DNA from: a virus | Length of the DNA: 23,354 nt | IMG/VR virus record: IMGVR_UViG_3300025101_000199 | Coordinates: 1 to 23,354 of that record | Reading direction: 5' to 3' (one strand) | In this document: one piece after another, positions 121 through 22,004 of the stretch | Layout: every line of letters begins with the position of its first letter | Position numbering within the stretch: the first letter of the stretch is position 1 | The notes under the pieces: model-generated | Seen by the model: only the letters and a program-made list of their open reading frames with translations | Told to the model about the DNA's origin: nothing | Database searches by the model: none | Translations under genes and position numbers: made by a program

Positions 121-2436
121 ATGGCTATATTTAGAGGGTTTAAACCAGAAGGGTTAGCTAAGATTGCTAAGTCTATGGGGTATCAAGGTAATATGGATAA
201 CTTTGCTAAGTTTATAGAAGAAGACCCTGCTAGACAAGAACAAGCTATAAAAATGGAAGATACTGCACGAGCTATGGCTAGAGGTGGTGTTGTTAAACTG
301 CTTAAAGGTGGTGACATTAGAAATGGAATGGAGTATGTTTCTATAGAAGGTCCTAGAGGTGTTGGCACAGGATTTTTTAGAGGCACTATTTCTAATCCTA
401 CTCAAAAAACACTAACAAGTGAACCTACATTTAGACAACCCGGAGATATGGGTAGATATATAGCTGATAATGACCCCGGACAAAAGTATGCAGGTTTTAA
501 TAGTATGGCTGATTATCAAGCATCTTTAAATAAACCTGCACCAACTACACAACAATCAACATTAGGTAGAACAACTACAAGCACGACTACTCAACAAGGT
601 GTACCTCAACAAACATATAAACAAGTAACAAAAGCAGTTCCTGAATTTCAAATAAAAGGCACTGACTTTAAGTTTGGTTCAGAAACAGAATTTGAAAATT
701 TTAAAAAATTAAATCCACAATATAAAGACACGAAGTTTGATGATTTATTACAAAAGACTACAACAGAAACTGTAGACCCAAATATAGCTGATATATCTGC
801 ACAAATGTTATCAGAACCAGGATTACCAACAGGTGCTATAACAAAGGCTGCTCAAATTACACAAACAGATGACCAAGTAGTAGCCGAAGGAACAGGTCAA
901 TTAGACCCTAGAACAGATGCTACAGCGACTGAAGCTACCACTACATTAGCTACAGTTGAGGGGGAAAAACAAGCAAATAAAATGACTGCTGCTGAGTCTG
1001 CTCAAGGAGTGCAAACAGCGTTAGATGCTACACAAGCACAAACAGTAGACCCCTCTGACCCTAAGAGTCAAGTAATAGCTGCTGAACAAACATCATCTGC
1101 TGTAGGAGATTTAAGTTCTGCTCAAGGTAAATCTATTCAATTAGAAAATCCTACCCAAAGAAAAATACAAGATGGTGAGTTAATTAGTGGAGTGGCTAAT
1201 GCTGAAACAGCCGCTAAGTTTACTGAGCAAGTTCAAGCTGCTACTGCAACCCCTTCTGAAAAAGCAACTGTACAAGGTCAGTTAGCATCGCTAACACAAA
1301 ACTTTGATGCAAGTAATCCCCCTCCGTGGGCTGCTGGTGCATTAAGGGGTGTTCAAGCAGCGATGGCATCACGAGGTTTAAGTGCATCAAGTATGGCAGG
1401 TCAAGCTATGGTACAAGCTGCACTAGAATCTGCATTACCTATTGCTCAAGCAGATGCATCAACACAAGCAAGTTTTGAAGCACAGAATTTAAGTAACAGA
1501 CAGCAAGTAGCTGTATTAGCTGCCAAACAAAGAGCGGCATTTATTGGTCAAGAGTTTGACCAAGCCTTTGAAGCAAGAGTTAAAAACTCTGCACGTATAG
1601 CAGATGTTGCTAATCAAAATTTTAGTGCTGAACAACAGATTGCTTTGGAAAATAGTCGTGCAGCAAATACAATGAACTTAAACAACTTGTCTAATAAACA
1701 AGCGTTAATTATGTCAGAAGCATCTGCATTAGCTAATTTAGATATGGCTAATTTAAGCAACAGACAACAAGCTGCTGTACAAAATGCTCAAGCATTTATG
1801 CAAAGAGATATGACTAACTTATCAAATAAACAACAAGTAGAAATGTTTAAGGCACAACAAAAAGTACAATCTGTATTTACTGACCAAGCTGCAACTAATG
1901 CCGCTCGTCAGTTTAATGCAACTTCACAAAATCAAACAGACCAATTCTTTGCTAATTTAAAAACACAAACAAGTCAATTTAATTCCTCACAGCAGAACGC
2001 ACAAGCACAGTTTAATGCTGGTGAAGAAAATGCAATGACTAAATTTAATGAAGAGATTAATAACCAACGTGACCAATTTAACGCTAACAATCAATTAGTC
2101 ATAGCACAAAACAACGCACAGTGGAGAAGACAGATAGCTACAGCTAATACAGCTGCTGTAAATAGAGCTAACGAAATAAACGCTTCTGCTGTACTAGAAA
2201 CATCTCGTGATGCATATGATAATCTTTGGAATTACTACCAAGACAATATGGAAAATGCTTGGACTAGTGCAGAGAAACAATTAGACAGATATCAAGAGTT
2301 AGCTATAGAACAAATAAGAGCAGATAGAGATATTGATTTGGCAGCTATGGCAGACCAAGGTGCGGCAGGTGCTGCTCTTGGCAATATGTTTTCAATATTG
2401 GGTGCAGGATTTTTAAAATCTAAATTCCCATTCTAA
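121..2436 (+). CDS. Virion structural protein with hendecad repeats, probable internal/ejection protein
   Basis: A 771-residue protein, seen in three parts. Residues 1-125 are a compact, basic, glycine-containing N-terminus. About 130-400 is Q/T/A-rich and low in complexity. Residues 401-447 hold a tryptophan-containing segment (PPWAAGALRGVQAAMASRG, then LSASSMAGQAM) of a kind I recall from large marine phage virion proteins. Residues 456-697 are a regular 11-residue repeat array, and the C-terminus (about 745-771) is glycine/alanine-rich and hydrophobic, ending LKSKFPF. There are no enzyme motifs. It heads the plus-strand block followed by the 466- and 1126-aa proteins. A long helical rod with a hydrophobic end fits an internal core, ejection or fibre-like protein; the exact role is inference. 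The ribosome binding site is weak. Confidence 0.72.
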   Translation: MAIFRGFKPEGLAKIAKSMGYQGNMDNFAKFIEEDPARQEQAIKMEDTARAMARGGVVKLLKGGDIRNGMEYVSIEGPRGVGTGFFRGTISNPTQKTLTSEPTFRQPGDMGRYIADNDPGQKYAGFNSMADYQASLNKPAPTTQQSTLGRTTTSTTTQQGVPQQTYKQVTKAVPEFQIKGTDFKFGSETEFENFKKLNPQYKDTKFDDLLQKTTTETVDPNIADISAQMLSEPGLPTGAITKAAQITQTDDQVVAEGTGQLDPRTDATATEATTTLATVEGEKQANKMTAAESAQGVQTALDATQAQTVDPSDPKSQVIAAEQTSSAVGDLSSAQGKSIQLENPTQRKIQDGELISGVANAETAAKFTEQVQAATATPSEKATVQGQLASLTQNFDASNPPPWAAGALRGVQAAMASRGLSASSMAGQAMVQAALESALPIAQADASTQASFEAQNLSNRQQVAVLAAKQRAAFIGQEFDQAFEARVKNSARIADVANQNFSAEQQIALENSRAANTMNLNNLSNKQALIMSEASALANLDMANLSNRQQAAVQNAQAFMQRDMTNLSNKQQVEMFKAQQKVQSVFTDQAATNAARQFNATSQNQTDQFFANLKTQTSQFNSSQQNAQAQFNAGEENAMTKFNEEINNQRDQFNANNQLVIAQNNAQWRRQIATANTAAVNRANEINASAVLETSRDAYDNLWNYYQDNMENAWTSAEKQLDRYQELAIEQIRADRDIDLAAMADQGAAGAALGNMFSILGAGFLKSKFPF
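1486..2211 (+). repeat. In-frame array of 22 degenerate 11-residue (hendecad) units
   Basis: Codons 456-697 of the 771-aa protein divide without gaps into 22 units of 11 residues, and 16 of the 22 begin with Asn. NLSN[RK]Q recurs at residues 456, 522, 544 and 566 (spacing 66, 22, 22), and NFSAEQQ sits in register at 500. From 588 to 653 six consecutive units all end in Phe (for example NATSQNQTDQF and NSSQQNAQAQF). The DNA itself is diverged, so this is an old protein repeat, not a recent tandem duplication. Confidence 0.8.
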
Positions 2437-2452
2437 GAAGTGAGATAAATTT

Positions 2453-2686
2453 ATGGAAACCAATCCAGCTATTAGAGTATATAATACTATTTTAAATATA
2501 GCAGATACTATACGTGAGCAAGACGAAGATAAAGAGCTACCTAAAAACGGACTATTATCTCCTAGAGGTAAGATGAGTAATGTTGAGCCTGAAGAAGCAG
2601 AAGATAGTCCTGCTTATAGAGTTGCTTTATATTTTAATCAGATAAGAGAAAAAAGAGAATTATTGAAAAATGGCAGAAATAGATAG
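2453..2686 (+). CDS. Small hypothetical protein (77 aa)
   Basis: A 77-residue charged protein, acidic in its middle (SNVEPEEAEDSPAYRVALYF) and basic at its end, with no membrane segment or recognisable domain. A purine-rich GAAGTGAG lies just upstream of the ATG. Its 3' end overlaps the next gene by 17 bases in another frame, so translation is probably coupled. Its place between two virion protein genes suggests a virion component or chaperone, but the family is not recognised. Confidence 0.6.
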   Translation: METNPAIRVYNTILNIADTIREQDEDKELPKNGLLSPRGKMSNVEPEEAEDSPAYRVALYFNQIREKRELLKNGRNR

Positions 2687-3194
2687 AGAACCATCCTTTA
2701 ACGCACCTATTCCAGGTCAAGCTATGACAGCAGAGCTAGGCAGTAGACCTTGGCAAAGACCCCCATTGTATACAACAGTTGAAGAAGCTATACAATTCTA
2801 TGTTCCTAGAATGAATGACGAAGAGTTTTCTGACTCTCTCGTTGAAGCACTAGAGATGGGTATACCTGTATCTGCTGTTGCTAATGGATTGCAGTTATCT
2901 AATGTTATGGATGGTAAGCATAGTGCTGATGTAGGTATATTAGTTATGCCTGTGTTAATGGAACTAATGATGTTACTAGCTGACACAGCAGGTATAGAAT
3001 ATAAATCAGGTCTTGAAGAAAAACCTAAAGAGTCAAGGATGATAACAAAAGCTATACGTACTATGAGACAAGAAGAAACACAAGAGCCTGTTGTTGATTT
3101 AGAAATGGCTCAACCAACAATAACAGAAACAACAGAAGAACCTCAAGAAGAAATGGAAGAAGAGCCAAAAGGATTAATGGCTAGGAGAGCGTAA
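2670..3194 (+). CDS. Conserved phage protein with PIPGQ...PW.RPP motif, putative structural
   Basis: A 174-residue protein. The N-terminus has a proline-rich signature, PIPGQAM at residues 13-19 followed by SRPWQRPPLYTTVEEAIQFY, which from memory resembles small proteins widespread in marine phage virion modules. The middle (about 50-108) is helical and moderately hydrophobic (VGILVMPVLMELMMLLADTA), more like a buried helix bundle than a clear membrane anchor. The C-terminal 50 residues are very Glu-rich. It overlaps the previous gene by 17 bases and the next by one base (TAATG). The function is unknown; a small structural or assembly role is inferred from position only. Confidence 0.65.
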   Translation: MAEIDREPSFNAPIPGQAMTAELGSRPWQRPPLYTTVEEAIQFYVPRMNDEEFSDSLVEALEMGIPVSAVANGLQLSNVMDGKHSADVGILVMPVLMELMMLLADTAGIEYKSGLEEKPKESRMITKAIRTMRQEETQEPVVDLEMAQPTITETTEEPQEEMEEEPKGLMARRA

Positions 3195-4594
3195 TGGCAA
3201 TATTTGGTATTGGTGCAGGTAAGATATTAGCGGGAGTTGTAGGAAGTGCTTTACTAGGTAAAGGTGCAAAAAGTAAAAGCCCATTTACAAGAGGATTTGT
3301 TCGTGGTTTTGCTGGAGAAAAAGGTGGGGGTGTTTCAGGTATCTTGAAAGCTGATATGGAGAGAACACAAGAAAGAATAGATAGAATTGCTGATTATAAA
3401 ATTCGTAGAGAAGAGAAAGATGCTGAACGATATCAAAAAGAATTAAGAGAAGCTACTGACAAGATTAAAGGTATATCGGGTAAAGTAGGTGGTGTTGATG
3501 GTGCAGAGTACCTTGTAAGAAACTATGGTTTAGCGGGTGCTGAGGAACAAGCAACTAAAATACAAAACTTACAAGAAATTTATGGTAAAGATGTTATAAA
3601 TTTAGACTTTATTACAAAAGATGAAAACACTACAACTATAGAAGATTTAGCTAAATTTTCTGTCTATGCACCTCGTAAAACAGATGTATCATCTTTACCA
3701 TCAAGTGTAATACAAGATACAAGTTTATTTGCTTCAATGGGTATGGGTAGAAATATAGGTGCTGAAGTTCAAAAACAAGTTGATACAGTGACTGCAAAGA
3801 TAGTTAATGGAGAAGATGTTGATTTAGGAGAAGAAGTAAAACTAGGTGGTGATTTAGATTTAGGTATGCAACTAAATCCTAAAAATGAAATATATAGATT
3901 AACTAATATGGCACTTAAAGTAAAAGACTCTAATCCTAAAAGATATGATGAGCTTATGAAAAAAGCTAATAAGTTAAAGTTTATTATTGATGAAGTTGAA
4001 AGAGGACCAAAAGAACTATCTATTTCTCAAGCATCTACTTCCCTTAAACAATTTAAAAATCATATAATAGATATTGCTGGTGTAAAAGGAGATTTTACAG
4101 TTACTTCTTTTGGTAAAGAATTTAAAAAGGCAAGTGGTTCAGCGTTTGAAGAGGGTAAAGTTGCAACTGCTGCTTCTATATTAACTCAATTATATGGAGA
4201 AGCATTACGAAAAGGAATGAAGCCTGAAGATATTTTACCAACTATTTTTAAAGCAATGGAGCAAAATAAACTACCTACTCTTATTCCAAGAGTAGATGAC
4301 CCTAGTAAGTTTGACTTTGAATTAACCACTGAGGACCAATTAATTCCAGGAGGATTTGCAGGAGGGTTTAATGAATATGCTCAAGCACCTGACGAAATAT
4401 CAAGCAATGAAACACTAAACCCAGCAGATGGATTAAGTGTAGGTCAACTTATCACGCAATATAATCAGTCAGGTTCTGATACTGAGAGAGATAGTTTACT
4501 ACCAACAATAATATCAAAGCTATTAGCTGAAAATAAAAAACCAAAGTTTAATCCCAGTAACACAAAAATTACTGGCACTATGCCTATTAATTAA
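3194..4594 (+). CDS. Probable internal virion protein (466 aa)
   Basis: A 466-residue protein. Residues 1-35 are glycine/alanine-rich and hydrophobic (MAIFGIGAGKILAGVVGSAL), then a basic linker (about 26-45) and a strongly charged, coiled-coil-like helix at about 50-95. The rest is mixed alpha/beta without catalytic motifs that I recognise. The start is well set: AGGAG lies upstream and the ATG overlaps the previous stop as TAATG. It precedes a 1126-aa giant, an order reminiscent of T7 gp15-gp16 (internal core proteins ejected into the host), but I see no direct sequence similarity to those, so the assignment rests on position, size and the membrane-active-looking N-terminus. Confidence 0.62.
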   Translation: MAIFGIGAGKILAGVVGSALLGKGAKSKSPFTRGFVRGFAGEKGGGVSGILKADMERTQERIDRIADYKIRREEKDAERYQKELREATDKIKGISGKVGGVDGAEYLVRNYGLAGAEEQATKIQNLQEIYGKDVINLDFITKDENTTTIEDLAKFSVYAPRKTDVSSLPSSVIQDTSLFASMGMGRNIGAEVQKQVDTVTAKIVNGEDVDLGEEVKLGGDLDLGMQLNPKNEIYRLTNMALKVKDSNPKRYDELMKKANKLKFIIDEVERGPKELSISQASTSLKQFKNHIIDIAGVKGDFTVTSFGKEFKKASGSAFEEGKVATAASILTQLYGEALRKGMKPEDILPTIFKAMEQNKLPTLIPRVDDPSKFDFELTTEDQLIPGGFAGGFNEYAQAPDEISSNETLNPADGLSVGQLITQYNQSGSDTERDSLLPTIISKLLAENKKPKFNPSNTKITGTMPIN

Positions 4595-4605: not shown

Positions 4606-7600
4606 ATGTATAATCAACAAAAAGAAATAAATAAAAAAACTTTAATAAACGATGAAAAGTTTATCTCTGATGCTTTGCGATTTTTAAAAAGTAGGAATGG
4701 CAATGACATAACTAAATATGATAACAAAGAAAAAATATATCAAGATTTTGTTGAACATTTTCGTTTTCAAAATGTTAACGAAGTTACAGCAATTAATGAT
4801 ATGATATATGCACAAAATGCTAATCAAGAAGAAAAAGATAGTTTTAGAAGATTAATGGATAGCTATGATAAAATGGATAGTGACTTTGGTTATAAAGCAG
4901 CAGAGGATTATGTGCAAGGTATATTTACTGCACCCTCTACGTATGCTGGTGTATTTACTGGAGGTGGTGCAAAAGTTGGTGCGTTGGCTGCACAACAAGG
5001 TGTTAAGTTAGGTATACGTCAATTATTAAAACAGGGTGCAGGTGGTAAAGCGTTAAGAAGTGCAGCAGCAAAAGGTGTAGCAAGAGCTGGACTAGTTGAA
5101 GGGGCTATAGGAGCAGGGCAAGTAGCTGCACAAGAACAAGCTAGAGTAGAAGCTGGATTAAAAGATAAGATTAATTATGGTAGTGTAGCGTTAGGTGGTG
5201 CATTAAGTGCTGCTCCAGGTGCTGTGTTAGGTGGTGCATCTCAAGTTCAATCTGCATTAGTTTCTAATTTTGCAGAGGAAATGAATCAACTTGCTACAAA
5301 ACAATCAAGTGAAGCAATATTAAATGCAAATGCTAAAGAGACAGCAGAAGCAATTAAAAGTGTAAAGTATGGTGAAACTACTAAAATTTTTTATGGTAAG
5401 CTAAAAGATAGACTAGCACTAAAAGAAACAATACCTACAGAACTAGCTATAGGTAAAGAAATATTAGATGAGTTTGGTGAAAAATTAGGTGCAACAACAT
5501 CAAAAGATTTCGCAGCAAAACTTGAACTAAAGAAAGCTCAAAACATTGCAGCAGCAGGTGCTAGATTGCTAGAGTCTATACCCCCATTAGATAAAGGTGA
5601 AGCACTTACATCACGATTAGCAAGAGGGTTAAATGCAAATGCTGTTAATGTTGACTCATTAGAAGCTCTAGCTAAAAGACACGGAATAAGTATTAGCGAC
5701 ATTGGTTCTTTATTAGCTATAGAAGTATCTGAAGCAGCATCTTTAATGGGAACAATAAGTGGTATTAAAAGAGCCGAAGCTAAAAAACTATTAGAGACAT
5801 TTAATCAGATTGACGGTAAATTAATTACTGCTGCTGATACGATTACTGGAAAAGCAAGAAAAGAACTAGATAAAAAATTAGGCGTGGGTACGATGGGTAA
5901 AGTACACACTGTTATGCAAAATATAAATAAAGCTCGTATAGGTGCTATGACAGTGCAACTTGCAACAACTACTCGTAATACAACCAATGGTTATATGCGT
6001 AATATTATTTACGCTTTTGATAATTTAGGTGCAGGGTTGTATAACAAATACTTTGAAGCAGGTAAAATTGGTAGAAATTTAACCGAAAGAAAAAAACTAG
6101 GTTTAATAGATATAACAGATGAAGAGATTGCAGCAGAGGTAAAACGTACTGTTAATTTAGGAAAAGCCCAAATGAAAACATTTAGGGATGCTATAATATT
6201 TAAAGACTTAATGTTTGGTATGACATCTGCTGATACAGCTGCACTAAAGGCTTTGATGGAAAATCCTGTGTTTGGAAAATCTGAAGCAGCCCAAAGATTA
6301 TTTATGCAAATGGGAGATGTTGGTCAACACTTAGGCGATGAAAGTTCAAGAGTTATAAAACTAGCTAGGATGGCAAATACATTAAATACTATGTCAGATA
6401 ATATGTTTAAACGTGCTGTCTTTGCAAGAGAAATAGATAAAGCATTAAGGGTAGGTGGTTTAGTAAAAGGCACTGATGGCAAGTTTATAAAATACCAAGA
6501 TGGATTTGAAGGTGGGTTAAACGAGTTTTTAAAAACAGGTAGATTTGGTGAAATGGATGAAAAAATGGTTGGTGCAGCTATGGAAAATGCACTTGACTTT
6601 ACATATCAAACAGGAAAGTTTAGAGGTAAAGAGGGTGTGTTTAACAAAGCAGCTGACACTTTTATATCTTTTTCTCAAAAACAAATACCCTCTACAGTTA
6701 TACCTTTTCCAAGATATTTAGTTAATCAATTTAGATTTGTATATGAACACACTCCTATTTTAGGAATGTTTAATATAGGGGGTATATTAAATAAATCAGG
6801 TAATGTTGCAACAGATACAGCAGATAGGTTTGGAAAACAAATAGGAGGATTCGTTGCTTTAGGAGGATTGTACACCATAAGAGAATTACATGGTGATGAT
6901 ACTACAGGACCTTTTGAATTTTATAATCCGTTTGGTAGGGGAACTGTAAATGCAGAAGCTGCGTTAGGTCCTTTTTCAACTCATGCTCTTTTAGCAGATT
7001 ACATATATCAACATATAAATTATGGTCCTAAAAATTTTCCTTATCAAACAGCTAAGTATCCAGAAAAGAAACTCGAATTTGATAGAAGGGATTTTGTTAA
7101 ATCATTAGGTGGTGGTCAGTTTAGACCAACAGGTTTAAATTTAGTTGATGGTTTTTTTGATACTATGGGAGCCGCATTAAATGATGGAAAAGTTGGTATT
7201 CAATTAGACGAAGCTGCAGCAAAATATATTGGTAATTATTTTAATACATATACTGTTGGAGCAGGTATGTTAAAAGACGTAGTTGCTACATTAGACCCTG
7301 AATATAGAACTGTTACCGACAGTAAAGATATAGAATTTTTTCCTTACTTCTTTAAATCAGCAACACGTTCATTTCCAACAAACGAGGAAGGTATGTATTT
7401 AGGATTACCTCCTTTACCTTTTGTGGGTAAGGTGGGTGCTGAAGGAATAGGACCTAAGAGAGCAAAGTTACAAAGCCCAACTAGAGCTGGGGGTATAAAA
7501 ATAATGAACCCTTTTATGAGACAATTAACAGGGCTTACACAACAAGAAGAAAGAAATGCCGCAGAAAAAGAATTAGATAGATTAGGATTTGAATTTTTTC

Positions 7601-7986
7601 AAGTCGTACCTAAAAAATTATTTGGAGACCCTAATTTAAACAATGAAATGAGAGGTAGGATGGGTCAGTACGTTGAGGATACTTTACAAAGATATATATT
7701 AACAGATGAAATATATAATGGTGTTCAAAGTGATGTAGAAAAAAAGTTTTTACTAAAAGAAAAAGTAAATGAATTAAGAAGTCGAGCAAGAAAAGAAATG
7801 TTAAATCCTAACAGATATGTTACGACAGAATTTTCATCTCGTATAGCTCGTATAAAATATTTTGATTTACCAAAAGATAAAAGAAATATAATTAATTTGT
7901 ATTATAAAAGAACGACTGGAAAAGAGCTAAGTCAAACTGGAGATTATGCAGCGGCTCTTGCCATTAAAGAACAATATAGTTTTTAA
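4606..7986 (+). CDS. Giant virion protein, candidate internal core / DNA-ejection protein (1126 aa)
   Basis: A 1126-residue protein, the largest here. Residues about 101-218 are Gly/Ala-rich and hydrophobic (for example GSVALGGALSAAPGAVLGGA), interspersed with Lys/Arg, as in membrane-penetrating segments of phage ejection proteins. The rest is long, soluble and helix-rich, with aromatic segments around 690-780. The C-terminal 160 residues are basic and carry MNPFMRQLTGLTQQEERNAA. No lysozyme or transglycosylase motif was found. It is the last gene of the plus-strand block, ending 74 bases before the convergent minus-strand gene. Size, position and hydrophobic segment resemble T7 gp16-type proteins; homology is not shown. 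The SD is weak (AAAGAAAT). Confidence 0.65.
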   Translation: MYNQQKEINKKTLINDEKFISDALRFLKSRNGNDITKYDNKEKIYQDFVEHFRFQNVNEVTAINDMIYAQNANQEEKDSFRRLMDSYDKMDSDFGYKAAEDYVQGIFTAPSTYAGVFTGGGAKVGALAAQQGVKLGIRQLLKQGAGGKALRSAAAKGVARAGLVEGAIGAGQVAAQEQARVEAGLKDKINYGSVALGGALSAAPGAVLGGASQVQSALVSNFAEEMNQLATKQSSEAILNANAKETAEAIKSVKYGETTKIFYGKLKDRLALKETIPTELAIGKEILDEFGEKLGATTSKDFAAKLELKKAQNIAAAGARLLESIPPLDKGEALTSRLARGLNANAVNVDSLEALAKRHGISISDIGSLLAIEVSEAASLMGTISGIKRAEAKKLLETFNQIDGKLITAADTITGKARKELDKKLGVGTMGKVHTVMQNINKARIGAMTVQLATTTRNTTNGYMRNIIYAFDNLGAGLYNKYFEAGKIGRNLTERKKLGLIDITDEEIAAEVKRTVNLGKAQMKTFRDAIIFKDLMFGMTSADTAALKALMENPVFGKSEAAQRLFMQMGDVGQHLGDESSRVIKLARMANTLNTMSDNMFKRAVFAREIDKALRVGGLVKGTDGKFIKYQDGFEGGLNEFLKTGRFGEMDEKMVGAAMENALDFTYQTGKFRGKEGVFNKAADTFISFSQKQIPSTVIPFPRYLVNQFRFVYEHTPILGMFNIGGILNKSGNVATDTADRFGKQIGGFVALGGLYTIRELHGDDTTGPFEFYNPFGRGTVNAEAALGPFSTHALLADYIYQHINYGPKNFPYQTAKYPEKKLEFDRRDFVKSLGGGQFRPTGLNLVDGFFDTMGAALNDGKVGIQLDEAAAKYIGNYFNTYTVGAGMLKDVVATLDPEYRTVTDSKDIEFFPYFFKSATRSFPTNEEGMYLGLPPLPFVGKVGAEGIGPKRAKLQSPTRAGGIKIMNPFMRQLTGLTQQEERNAAEKELDRLGFEFFQVVPKKLFGDPNLNNEMRGRMGQYVEDTLQRYILTDEIYNGVQSDVEKKFLLKEKVNELRSRARKEMLNPNRYVTTEFSSRIARIKYFDLPKDKRNIINLYYKRTTGKELSQTGDYAAALAIKEQYSF

Positions 7987-14110: not shown

Positions 14111-16156
14111 TCACAAAATGTCTTTTGTGTCAAGCCAATTATTACCTATTTTTGCTTCCAATAATAATGGCACATTAAAATCAATATTCCACCTTGAATC
14201 TATTAAAGATTTTAAATTAGCATTTGTGTCCTTTATAACTTTAAGAACATCGTCTACCTCAGATGGATGAATATCAATAACTATACTATCGTGTACAGTA
14301 TTTACAATACAAGATTGTTTTTCTTTTAATAAACCATCCATATAAACTAGACATAATAAGACACAATCAGCAGTAGCAAATGATTGTACGGGGTAGTTCT
14401 TTATTTGTGTAAAAGAAGTAATGTTATTATTCTTTAATCTATACACATTATTAAATGTAAACTCCCTACCTGATGGTATCTTAATCGTATTAGTATCTAG
14501 TGCTTCTTGTGCTAACTTGCGATGCCAATTTGCAACACCCTTGTACTTTTCAATAAAGTGTGTGTAGTAGGTAGCTTCTGCTTTTGTTCTACCAAAACCA
14601 CTAGCACCATACAAAGGTGCAAACGTGTGTGCCTTTGAAGCAGTACGAGATATAGGTTGTCCTGCATCACTTATAACTTTTGCAGTATAACTATGCACGT
14701 CAAACCCTTCTTCTATTTCTTTCATAGCAGTTTCATCTTGAGATAAAAAAGCAGCCACTCTAAATTCTAATTGTGCAAAGTCTGCTTCAAGTATCTTACC
14801 GTCTTCCCAACGAGATACGAACACTCTCTTTACAGGAAACGTACCACCTCTAGGCATATTCTGCATATTAGGATTAGCACCACTCAACCTACCTGTAGAT
14901 GTTCTATGCTGTAATAACTTAACGTGCAACATATCATCTTGTTTAGTGTTTGAAAAGATACCGTCAACAAAGGAAGAAAGATAGGTTTCAACTGCACTTA
15001 GCCTTCTAACCTTTGACAGAAAAGCATATGCAGTATCCATACTTTTTTCTTTTGCTATTCTTTCTAATACTGCAATATTTATTTTACTAGTTGTAAAACC
15101 ATTTGCACTTGCCCACTTAGCATTAGGTGCTTTAAATTTTAAACCAGCAACTTCATCTGTCTTGTCAAATAGAAACCCTGTAGCATCACAAGTAGGACAC
15201 TTTGTATCATTAACAAAAGGTGTGCCATCTTTCTTTGTCTTCCTATACTTACCGTGTCCTTTACAAGTGGGGCATTGTCTAGCTTTTGTCTTGTAAACTA
15301 TTTGTGTTTTCTTATTGACAATATCCTTAAATGTATTTTCTTTCATATACGGATTGTAAGAGTTCTGCCAATCTGTTTTATCATAAGGCTTACGACTATA
15401 AATTACCCACGATAATTGTTCAGGACTATTTAAATTTATAGGTGTGTCACCCATTAAGTTACGAACGTATGATTGTAATTCTTGAATAAGTTCTTTTCTT
15501 TCTGTATTAAATTCTTCTTTAACTTTTTCAAGAGTTTCTTTATTAACTTTAAAACCACGCTTATATATCTTAGCGAGGGTTAAACAAACTTCATTCGATA
15601 GTTTAACAGTATCTAATAAACCTTTGTTAGTAGGTTCATTTAATTTTTTATTTAGAACATTGTACAGTTCTTGAGTTGCATTGATGTCAGATTCTAAATA
15701 CTCAGACAGTTCATCATAGGGTATATCTCTAGTTGAGAATCCCCTTTTATAATATTCTTTAAGAGTTCCTTGTTTCTTAGTATCTAGTGTATATCTTTCA
15801 GCACACGCTTCAAGAGACAGTGGTTGCTTTTGTCCACGTTGTAAAACGTATTCTGCAATCATAGTATCAAATACTAAACCATCGTATTTAAAACCTGATT
15901 CCCACAACCACACCAGGTCGTAAGCTATATTGTGACCAATAAGTAATGTTGTTTTATCTAAGTAAGATTGAACTAAATCTCTACCGTCCAAACTTATCTT
16001 ATCATTTTCAACATGGTCAAATGTCACAATATGCTTAGTTCCATTTTCCTGTAGCAAACCCACCATAACCAATGAGTTCTCATACTCAAAAGGGTCAAGG
16101 TGATGTTTGCCATCTCTTATGGTAGTAGTATTTTCTACGTCAAGAGTTAGTTTCAT
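14111..16156 (-). CDS. Family A DNA polymerase with DnaJ-type zinc insertion
   Basis: A 681-residue replicative DNA polymerase with 3'-5' exonuclease. Exo motifs: LTLDVE (D6, E8), GHNIAYD, and YLESDINAT. Polymerase motifs: A DFAQLEFR (D459), B RTASKAHTFAPLYG (K508), C VHDS (D623), where the usual HDE is HDS. Between the domains, residues 295-323 hold CPTCKGHG and CPTCDATG, a DnaJ-like zinc module. A DnaJ-like insertion in PolA is described for HMO-2011 and relatives. The start at 16156 is chosen because GGAGG lies 11 bases upstream and the exo motif begins at once; a longer frame would need a TTG and an unlikely N-terminus. The gene is coupled to the 37-aa microprotein just before it. Confidence 0.95.
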   Translation of the reverse strand: MKLTLDVENTTTIRDGKHHLDPFEYENSLVMVGLLQENGTKHIVTFDHVENDKISLDGRDLVQSYLDKTTLLIGHNIAYDLVWLWESGFKYDGLVFDTMIAEYVLQRGQKQPLSLEACAERYTLDTKKQGTLKEYYKRGFSTRDIPYDELSEYLESDINATQELYNVLNKKLNEPTNKGLLDTVKLSNEVCLTLAKIYKRGFKVNKETLEKVKEEFNTERKELIQELQSYVRNLMGDTPINLNSPEQLSWVIYSRKPYDKTDWQNSYNPYMKENTFKDIVNKKTQIVYKTKARQCPTCKGHGKYRKTKKDGTPFVNDTKCPTCDATGFLFDKTDEVAGLKFKAPNAKWASANGFTTSKINIAVLERIAKEKSMDTAYAFLSKVRRLSAVETYLSSFVDGIFSNTKQDDMLHVKLLQHRTSTGRLSGANPNMQNMPRGGTFPVKRVFVSRWEDGKILEADFAQLEFRVAAFLSQDETAMKEIEEGFDVHSYTAKVISDAGQPISRTASKAHTFAPLYGASGFGRTKAEATYYTHFIEKYKGVANWHRKLAQEALDTNTIKIPSGREFTFNNVYRLKNNNITSFTQIKNYPVQSFATADCVLLCLVYMDGLLKEKQSCIVNTVHDSIVIDIHPSEVDDVLKVIKDTNANLKSLIDSRWNIDFNVPLLLEAKIGNNWLDTKDIL

Positions 16157-16163
16157 TTCAGCA

Positions 16164-16277
16164 TTAACCTCCGAAAGCCGAAACCAAAAGAGGTGTAACA
16201 ACTTCTTTAGTAATGCCCAAGGCAAGTACTAATTTAATACCGAAGCTGACAACACCAGAGAAAGTAATTGGGTCCAT
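16164..16277 (-). CDS. 37-aa hydrophobic microprotein upstream of DNA polymerase
   Basis: A short ORF (37 codons) with GGAG six bases before its ATG at 16277, ending in a TAA seven bases before the polymerase ATG. The peptide starts MDPITFSGVVSFGIKLVLAL, continues with a Lys-Glu pair, then hydrophobic residues to AFGG. It could be one membrane helix or an amphipathic peptide. The last two Gly codons (GGA GGT) form the ribosome binding site of the polymerase gene, so the two are physically interlocked. Function unknown; it could be a leader peptide controlling polymerase translation or a membrane-acting peptide. Confidence 0.6.
   Translation of the reverse strand: MDPITFSGVVSFGIKLVLALGITKEVVTPLLVSAFGG
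16168..16172 (-). promoter_or_regulatory. Ribosome binding site that sets the DNA polymerase start
   Basis: GGAGG on the minus strand, inside the final codons of the 37-aa ORF and 11 bases before the polymerase ATG at 16156. It makes that ATG preferable to the upstream in-frame TTG at 16225. Confidence 0.65.
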
Positions 16278-20382: not shown

Positions 20383-20686
20383 GTTCTCCTCCATTGCTAC
20401 GACCTAGACCAGGCTTTGAATACCAATGGTCAAAGTAGTTTGGGTTACGCTTTGCAGTTTCAAATGCCGCAACTGTTAGAACTATGGCTACGATTAATAT
20501 TATATGTATCATAGTTGTAAGACCAAATATCCACATACTACCAAACCACATTGAAAATGCTATGCACCACATCCACGCTAGTAGTTGCATTACCATATGT
20601 CTAACGTGTAAGTCTTGTATATTACTTAGTGGATTGCGTTCATAATTCATAACAACATTCCAACAATCATATATAAATTTACTCAT
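20375..20686 (-). CDS. Small membrane protein with two transmembrane helices (103 aa)
   Basis: A 103-residue protein. Residues about 32-56 (VMQLLAWMWCIAFSMWFGSM and onward) and 58-77 (MIHIILIVAIVLTVAAF) are two membrane helices with a short turn between them. A cytosolic-looking N-terminus carries YERNPLSNIQD and the C-terminus is basic and polar. From memory, small marine phage proteins with NPLS...WMW...FG look alike; none has a known role. Two helices and the size would also fit a holin, but no endolysin neighbours it. The ATG overlaps the methyltransferase end, with GGAGGT upstream. Confidence 0.7.
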   Translation of the reverse strand: MSKFIYDCWNVVMNYERNPLSNIQDLHVRHMVMQLLAWMWCIAFSMWFGSMWIFGLTTMIHIILIVAIVLTVAAFETAKRNPNYFDHWYSKPGLGRSNGGEHE

Positions 20687-22004
20687 TCATACCTCCAAAT
20701 ATATGTGCTACAACATCAACTGTCCAACCGTTGCCTAGCATCTTGTATCGTTGTGTCTTGGACACATGATTAGTGTAGTTGTCAGGAACAGTTTGTAATC
20801 TCTCACACTCAAGTGGTGTCAGCTTTCTGTACAACTCGTCTTGCACTACTACATTATCTTTCTGAACAGTGGTGAGACAATTAGATTTATCTGTATCTGA
20901 TATCTCAATCTGTGGTGTAAAAGGTAATTCTTTCTGACCATCTTTTCTAACACCATTCTCATCAAGTCTACGATTAATAACTCTACCAATCTTAGGTTCT
21001 TTTTCTTGTAAAGCTAAAGTCTTTTTCTTTACACTTGTTAAGAACTCAGAGCTACTACCACCTCTACCAATAGCTTCTGTTAAACAGTTAGCTTTGTTTG
21101 GTGTTGTATTAATCTTACGAATTTTCTCTAGCTGATTATCATTTAATGAAACAATACTAGAATCAATAGCAACCTTCGGTTCTCTATGTCCACCTTGCAT
21201 AGTGGTAAGGGTAGGTGATTTGCCATTGGGTGAGTACACTCTCTTGATAGAATCAAATCCTTTGATGTTAGTTGCTTCACCAACTTGTATAGGCTTCTTT
21301 ACAAATGTTGGTATCTGTCCTTTCCACATAGATGCAGTAAGACAATGTGCCTTATCATCTGTAACTGACTTGACCATATCACCTCTACGTCTACCACACC
21401 ATTTATTATTTAAGTAGTTAGGTATCTCAGAGAATGGTAAGTCTTCTAAGATATCTTTTAAGACTATGCCCTTATCCTGGATTTGTTTATCAAAGGGTAT
21501 GTTAGTCCAATATAACCTACGTCTACTTTGAGCAGAGAACAAACTACTGTTTATCTCAATAGGCTTAACACCTAAATACTTTGTGATAATATCCTCTGAC
21601 TCTTTCTTCATCTTGACATTCTCAAGTAAGAAGTACTTTGGTTGTAGATTATCTTTCAGCCTAACAAACTCAAAGAACAACTTACTGCGAGGGTCTTCAA
21701 AGTTTAACTGCTTACCTGCAAAACTAAATCCTTGGCAAGGTGAACCACCCATAAGTAAATCAATCTTGTGATGTCCTCGACAAGGTGCAACTAACACACC
21801 AATCTCTTTACCTTGTGAAAAACTTTTGCTAGTCCATACTTTAGTTACATCACCTAACTGAACTGTGTTAGGAAAATTCTCTTGTGCAACTTGTATAGCA
21901 TACTTGTCAATCTCACAAGCAAAATAGTTGTGATACTTTATACCAGCCTTGTTGAGTGCTATCTGTCCACAAGACATACCATCAAATAAACTTAATACAT
22001 TCAT
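20679..22004 (-). CDS. dcm: DNA (cytosine-5)-methyltransferase
   Basis: A 441-residue C5-cytosine DNA methyltransferase using S-adenosylmethionine. Motif I LSLFDGMSCG (SAM binding, residues 4-13), motif IV GGSPCQGFS with catalytic C90, motif VI ENV (E128), motif VIII QSRRR (159-163), motif IX KTQRYKMLGNG (416-426) and a short motif X. The long region 200-390, where the target-recognition domain lies, contains four K-x-x-[CT]-L-T units at 218, 262, 304 and 373. No restriction partner lies beside it, so it probably protects phage DNA from host restriction. AAGGAGGT gives a strong start. GC use does not differ visibly from its neighbours. Confidence 0.95.
   Translation of the reverse strand: MNVLSLFDGMSCGQIALNKAGIKYHNYFACEIDKYAIQVAQENFPNTVQLGDVTKVWTSKSFSQGKEIGVLVAPCRGHHKIDLLMGGSPCQGFSFAGKQLNFEDPRSKLFFEFVRLKDNLQPKYFLLENVKMKKESEDIITKYLGVKPIEINSSLFSAQSRRRLYWTNIPFDKQIQDKGIVLKDILEDLPFSEIPNYLNNKWCGRRRGDMVKSVTDDKAHCLTASMWKGQIPTFVKKPIQVGEATNIKGFDSIKRVYSPNGKSPTLTTMQGGHREPKVAIDSSIVSLNDNQLEKIRKINTTPNKANCLTEAIGRGGSSSEFLTSVKKKTLALQEKEPKIGRVINRRLDENGVRKDGQKELPFTPQIEISDTDKSNCLTTVQKDNVVVQDELYRKLTPLECERLQTVPDNYTNHVSKTQRYKMLGNGWTVDVVAHIFGGMNE

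Follow-up and report, generated by a model that had tools for sequence, protein, structure and literature searches.

A hendecad-array protein of HMO-2011-type podophages changes length by whole eleven-residue units and may form an ejected helical rod

Results

The DNA analysed here (the window, 23,354 nucleotides) comes from a marine podophage of the HMO-2011 type and covers part of its genome. Gene A (121..2436, + strand) encodes a 771-aa array protein homologous to gp25 of Puniceispirillum phage HMO-2011 (phage1322_25; 60% identity, annotated "hypothetical"). By the array protein HMO-2011 is the nearest isolate, followed by the roseophages CRP-1, CRP-345 and others. The protein opens with a small helical domain (residues 9-53; 145..279, +; AlphaFold pLDDT about 90). 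A conserved cap (residues 384-455; 1270..1485, +) carrying Q387, L391, P401, W403, G419 and P440-I-A leads into the array, the first part of which (residues 456-587; 1486..1881, +) has a 22-residue super-period (NLSNxQQ / NAQxFxQxDMA), while the second (residues 588-664; 1882..2112, +) consists of Phe-ended QFNA units with a hydrophobic seam at positions 11/4/8. The helix end (residues 665-735; 2113..2325, +) holds the conserved W668-R669, W703 and R723. The hydrophobic Gly/Ala tail described in the first-pass annotation is present at residues 747-767 (2359..2421, +) but is only mildly hydrophobic (mean KD19 hydropathy 1.37), and a comparable tail occurs in about half of the relatives.

Gene A is the first gene of a conserved block, A-B-C-D-E, which in isolates closes the late gene region; in the window, opposite-strand genes begin after E. 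Gene B (2453..2686, +; 77 aa) is small and fast evolving and occupies the same place in relatives. Gene C (2670..3194, +; 174 aa) is a conserved partner with a hydrophobic segment at residues 83-111, and it lies within 4 kb downstream of A in 229 of the 234 loci with room for it. Gene D (3194..4594, +; 466 aa) has a hydrophobic N-terminus (residues 1-25), and gene E (4606..7986, +; 1126 aa) encodes a large protein that was modelled as helical (pTM 0.79) without a recognised fold. Beyond C, relatives carry an ORF of 360-900 aa and then one of 1,000-1,430 aa (5-95% ranges). A and C can be aligned over their full length; D and E diverge fast. The isolate homologues, in CRP, HTVC, CHOED, MQM1, Slicky01, phiM6 and RHph phages, are nearly all annotated as hypothetical and have the same neighbours.

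Neither A nor E matched any solved structure by sequence, and fold searches returned no PDB relative for A or for E, the VIA list for E covering mainly residues 331-540. At the E position, both the long-array contig L302 and Slicky01 carry proteins with matches to PHROG "virion structural protein" families. Further PHROG matches in L302 are to terminase, portal and tail proteins, and the ten large ORFs scanned there include no separate long tape measure; the P22 coat and stabilisation Pfam models proved too distant for typing long-array contigs. Conserved motifs of E are MTSQ.ATT.RN, FKRA.F and PFPRF. D showed a weak match, under the curated cut-off, to the type III secretion translocon family SctB2 (E 0.0014).

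The first-pass annotation had described 22 in-register hendecads at residues 456-697 (nt 1486-2211), 16 of them starting with Asn and six successive ones ending in Phe, with a period of eleven rather than a heptad. Our re-count agrees on all three numbers, the Phe-ended units beginning at residues 588, 599, 610, 621, 632 and 643, and autocorrelation confirmed the period. In residues 456-697 the z scores (identity/BLOSUM) were 5.1/5.1 at lag 11, 7.0/7.9 at lag 22, 5.0/5.9 at lag 33 and 7.0/7.6 at lag 44, as against -2.2/-1.8 at lag 7; the highest z at any lag in any of 2,000 shuffles was 4.7. Residues 1-389, the N-terminal half, gave no autocorrelation signal at 11 or 22. Within the array, period 22 is stronger than period 11, and NLSNxQQ units alternate with units resembling NAQxFxQxDMA. 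Tandem Repeats Finder detected no repeat in the array DNA (0 rows), indicating that the array is old and maintained at the protein level.

The array is predicted to be alpha-helical. An AlphaFold monomer model of the gene A protein (79 sequences, mean pLDDT 64.7) placed helices at residues 424-475 and 503-555 and a single helix at 570-750, with pLDDT mostly 65-90; the model is weak at 490-590, where most residues fall below 63. The regular helix appears to run past residue 697, with conserved units to about 735. Composition also argues for the helical chain of the first reading rather than a disordered one: the 28,545 residues of distinct family array units contain no Pro, no Cys and 1.4% Gly, whereas the N-terminal halves of the family contain 6.3% Pro, a rate at which about 1,790 Pro would be expected in the array residues. 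Array units are rich in Ala, Gln and Met and poor in Gly, Thr, Val and Ile, and their helix propensity is 0.395 kcal/mol as compared with 0.623 kcal/mol in the N-terminal halves.

On an 11/3 helical wheel the hydrophobic positions form two arcs about 160 degrees apart, one of positions 2, (6) and 10 and the other of 11, (4) and 8. They are parted by a narrow polar strip at positions 3 and 7 (Ser, Gln and Asn, with little charge) and a wider one at positions 1, 5 and 9 (Asn and charges). Compared with shuffles, the hydrophobicity of residues 456-697 has a significant second harmonic (p<0.001) and no first harmonic (p=0.77). Likewise, in the units of the whole family the hydrophobicity power at 3/11 is about zero, the two-face term lies far above shuffles, and the second harmonic exceeds the first in 12 of 13 array length classes. 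A single seam (period 11/3) is thus absent over the whole array and appears in subregions only (588-664, p=0.001; 456-587, p=0.02). The long right-handed coiled coil put forward earlier therefore fits subregions such as the Phe-ended units and does not describe the array as a whole. Two packing faces on one helix are a feature of barrels and multi-helix bundles.

A tblastn search of phage records found relatives in 27 records, among them pelagiphages, roseophages, Vibrio phage CHOED, Aeromonas phage MQM1, Pseudoalteromonas phage Slicky01 and Rhizobium and Sinorhizobium phages. Scans of IMG/VR added hundreds more, and 316 family proteins were assembled in total. Their signature, which gene A shares, is the cap PxW...RG.SSS...PIA and the motif WRR on either side of a hendecad array, with gene C next. 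The N-terminal halves and the number of units vary among relatives; homology to the isolates spans cap and array. A pattern scan of 84,980 genomes with a profile of the rhizobiophage/roseophage subfamily found one relative, in a Blastopirellula MAG, indicating from that one scan that this phage family is rarely held in host genomes.

Array length was measured from the Pro of PIA (P440) to the Trp of WRR (W668) in 254 family proteins. It takes 13 values over a sevenfold range (118, 151, 162, 173, 184, 217, 228, 239, 316, 426, 536, 756 and 866 residues), with all but three of the distances (251) congruent to 8 modulo 11; no such rule holds modulo 7. Among the exceptions, 122 is due to a decoy anchor upstream and 317 to a one-residue insertion beside WRR; 235, in L245 (L245:7098-9176), is genuine and the sole clear breach of the rule. 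Two flanking distances served as controls. Start codon to P440 (125 values) and W668 to stop codon (51 values) each fill the eleven residue classes evenly; the cap spacing P401-P440 is 37-39 in all relatives but one. Were indel lengths free and independent, the chance of 13 lengths falling in one residue class would be about 3e-13. Mapped by parsimony onto a protein C tree (C has no array), array length changes about 20 times. Between sister sequences the difference is one unit (228/217, 162/151, 184/173) or ten (866/756). Across the family the arrays range from about 9 to 79 hendecads, the longest showing higher-order repeats of 55, 110 and 220 residues. Two extreme members, each with 110/220-residue repeats, are a protein of 1,674 aa with about 79 in-register units (L302:3062-8086) and one of 1,589 aa with about 69 (L282:1192-5961). 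This whole-unit length rule needs no structural model and, of all the findings, speaks most strongly for a register constraint.

Some relatives carry additional domains. A self-chaperoning Peptidase_S74 domain was found at the C-terminus of 4 of 26 gene A relatives in one sample and of 7 of 50 in another, and a LysM-type, peptidoglycan-binding domain near the N-terminus of one relative. Two sets of profile matches were set aside. Those to phrog_4287 ("DNA ejection protein") and most of those to phrog_6121, by the roseophage members, fall mostly on the S74 domain and were not taken as evidence that the array is homologous; in CRP-235 the matches to "endolysin/transglycosylase" PHROGs span about 50 residues and probably reflect the LysM domain, not a catalytic one.

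Discussion

The best explanation of these data, to which we give even odds, is that in HMO-2011-type and related podophages gene A encodes a helical rod that is ejected and oligomerises, probably as a DNA-conduit tube. The quantised array length, the absence of Pro, the two-face pattern, the conserved gene block, the LysM-bearing relative and the PHROG matches at the E position all favour it. The first-pass annotation had called the product a virion protein that could be ejected to form a tunnel or rod; this is plausible from the gene context, from which both the virion location and ejection are deduced. On that basis it is quite probable that the protein resides in the virion and is ejected, and a side-by-side assembly of its helices appears similarly probable. 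The further step, that the assembled helices form a DNA conduit, has about an equal chance of being right or wrong.

In the proposed mechanism the gene A protein would be an internal virion (ejection) protein with a variable N-terminal half, a cap and a long hendecad helix. Each hendecad would make three helical turns and present two hydrophobic faces parted by faces rich in Asn and Gln, such that each helix could pack on two neighbours in a straight bundle or barrel. The protein would exit the head ahead of the DNA and, together with C, D and E, prolong the short tail so that a conduit spans the envelope, with the amide face of the helices presumably lining the lumen. If every unit lies in register with the units of its neighbours, the length can change only by whole eleven-residue units, since an indel of any other size would put all later units out of phase; hence the register rule. 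The indivisible length quantum of the conduit would then be a single unit of three helix turns, about 1.65 nm long. Length itself limits this mechanism. As straight helices, arrays of 536-866 residues would measure 80-130 nm, beyond both the periplasm and a podophage head, and a straight trans-periplasmic tube therefore cannot hold for all members. Such a tube fits the classes of 18-36 nm (118-239 residues) and is doubtful for that of 47 nm (316 residues); the classes of 64-130 nm (426-866 residues) cannot be a straight tube and must fold back or act otherwise. A further point against the mechanism is that array length showed no significant correlation with the size of D or E.

The too-long arrays are accommodated more easily if the protein is an ejected rope or tape, a two- or three-helix bundle packed in the head that leads or anchors the DNA as a tape measure would and forms no tube, with register mattering for bundle packing only. 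The siphophage tape-measure proteins, which carry a variable number of 11-residue repeats marked by Trp or Phe (PMC3271669), or an 11/18-residue spacing in the case of TP901-1 (PMC5099701), provide a precedent, and the Phe-ended units supply an 11/4/8 seam. Two hydrophobic faces run over the array, however, and where morphology is known, as for MQM1 (PMC10410586), the family members are podophages, which have no long tail to measure; we regard the rope as possible but doubtful. An external trimeric coiled-coil fibre of the tail or head, its length set by the array and its folding assisted in some members by S74 as a fibre chaperone, would agree with the position of gene A after the tail-fibre genes and with the frequency of S74 in tail fibres. 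But S74 is missing from most members and is likewise the last domain of proteins annotated for DNA ejection (7-11, PVA1), one member has a LysM domain, and the order of the block is like that of the SU10 ejection genes. The protein is also conserved towards its C-terminus and variable towards its N-terminus, the opposite of the usual fibre. A fibre is accordingly unlikely.

The remaining alternatives concern the fold. The first-pass annotation had offered an amphipathic helix lying on a membrane, like the 11-mer helices of LEA proteins, apolipoproteins and synuclein. The eleven-residue period is what such helices have; the presence of two hydrophobic faces, with first-harmonic power about zero where a single face would be needed, speaks against it, as does the finding that no array segment in the window reaches a KD19 of 1.0, and we consider this idea very improbable. 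A beta-solenoid with coils of 11 or 22 residues and Asn ladders would explain the 22-residue super-period, the Asn at position 1 and the hydrophobicity power at periods of 2.2-2.75, and would also be expected to change length coil by coil. The second-harmonic pattern (period 2.2), with which a solenoid would agree too, is among the points against the helical rod. Composition, with its high helix propensity and few Gly, Thr, Val or Ile, and the AlphaFold helices oppose a solenoid, which is highly unlikely.

Among known systems, the H protein of phiX174 is the closest in kind. Ten copies of it build a helical tube whose first part consists of hendecads; Asn, Gln and Arg make up 18 of the 23 residues in the lumen, and the tube serves as an envelope-spanning DNA conduit (PMC7354561). 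Its tube region, like the predicted helix of the array, contains hendecads and no Pro and is rich in Asn and Gln (26% in the H tube region, 30% in the array). It differs in that H comes from another virus realm and has three hendecads followed by heptads over 121 residues, whereas the gene A family uses hendecads only. The two-face signal of H itself is weak (p=0.14 in its heptads); the array shows both the amide content and the two faces in its sequence. Profile comparison of A with H gave only a 13-residue match around NLSxxQQ, which is not significant (E 0.27). The likeness to the H tube is thus one of kind, not of descent.

Siphophage tape measures, tail proteins involved in DNA transit, share with gene A the 11-residue units, the aromatic markers and the change of length by whole units (Belcaid 2011; TP901-1), but the array differs from them in that its units place Asn first and Phe is concentrated in the last of them. 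Ejection proteins of podophages (T7 gp14/15/16, P22 gp7/20/16 and SU10 gp20-24) resemble the block as a late group of several large helical proteins. In SU10 the five consecutive late genes gp20-24 encode virion proteins that are lost upon genome release (PMC9509320); these genes in SU10 and 7-11 lie in a similar place, and the last two are similar in size to D and E, but no relation in sequence emerged. Tunnel-forming ejection proteins are known from T7 and others (PMC8954989). Gene A gave no significant profile match to T7 gp14-16 and, apart from the S74 domain, none to the SU10 and 7-11 ejection proteins, and no hendecad array was seen in the podophage ejection proteins compared. Gene E likewise matched none of these proteins, nor phiX174 H, by sequence, and these negative results count against the ejected rod. 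Families of podophage ejection proteins diverge beyond detection. Gene A is set apart from the T7, SU10, H and tape-measure families and is not filed as a member of any.

Hendecad units in variable number (siphophage tape measures) and tunnel-forming ejection proteins (T7) were thus already known, and what is new here is the variant in podophages; we found no report of such an array in podophages in the open-access literature searched. HMO-2011-type phages are among the common ocean phages, and nearly all of their A-E genes are called hypothetical. With 13 lengths, about 20 changes and almost no exception, the whole-unit rule serves as a clean natural experiment on register within helical assemblies. 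Together with the phiX174 H tube and the siphophage tape measures, it suggests that hendecads are used again and again by proteins that serve the passage of phage DNA through channels. As a tentative generalisation, widespread podophage ejection proteins might build a length-adjustable helical DNA conduit from hendecads alone, resembling that of phiX174 H in unrelated phages, with the longest members (over 70 units) folding back or exceeding a periplasmic tunnel.

Some further genes deserve mention. In 31 pelagiphage-type loci the array gene is followed, at a distance of 0-25 bases, by a gene of the HlyC family (PF02794, RTX-toxin lysine acyltransferase) or a phmmer relative of it; in 33 other loci such a gene precedes the array gene by about 2.3-3.6 kb (examples are L026:8994-9443, L127:3358-3822 and L029:3455-3877); there is none among the genes of the window. 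A literature search found no paper on an HlyC-family gene beside an array gene. The phage HlyC-type enzyme may acylate an ejection protein for membrane entry. On the minus strand, the window also encodes a phage integrase (18353-19243; PF00589) and a C5 cytosine methylase (20679-22004; PF00145), yet array relatives were almost absent from bacterial genomes in the one scan made. A third minus-strand ORF (14111-16225) encodes an A-type DNA polymerase with an internal CxxCxGxG zinc-finger-like insert (CPTCKGHG...CPTCDATG), annotated in HMO-2011 as well.
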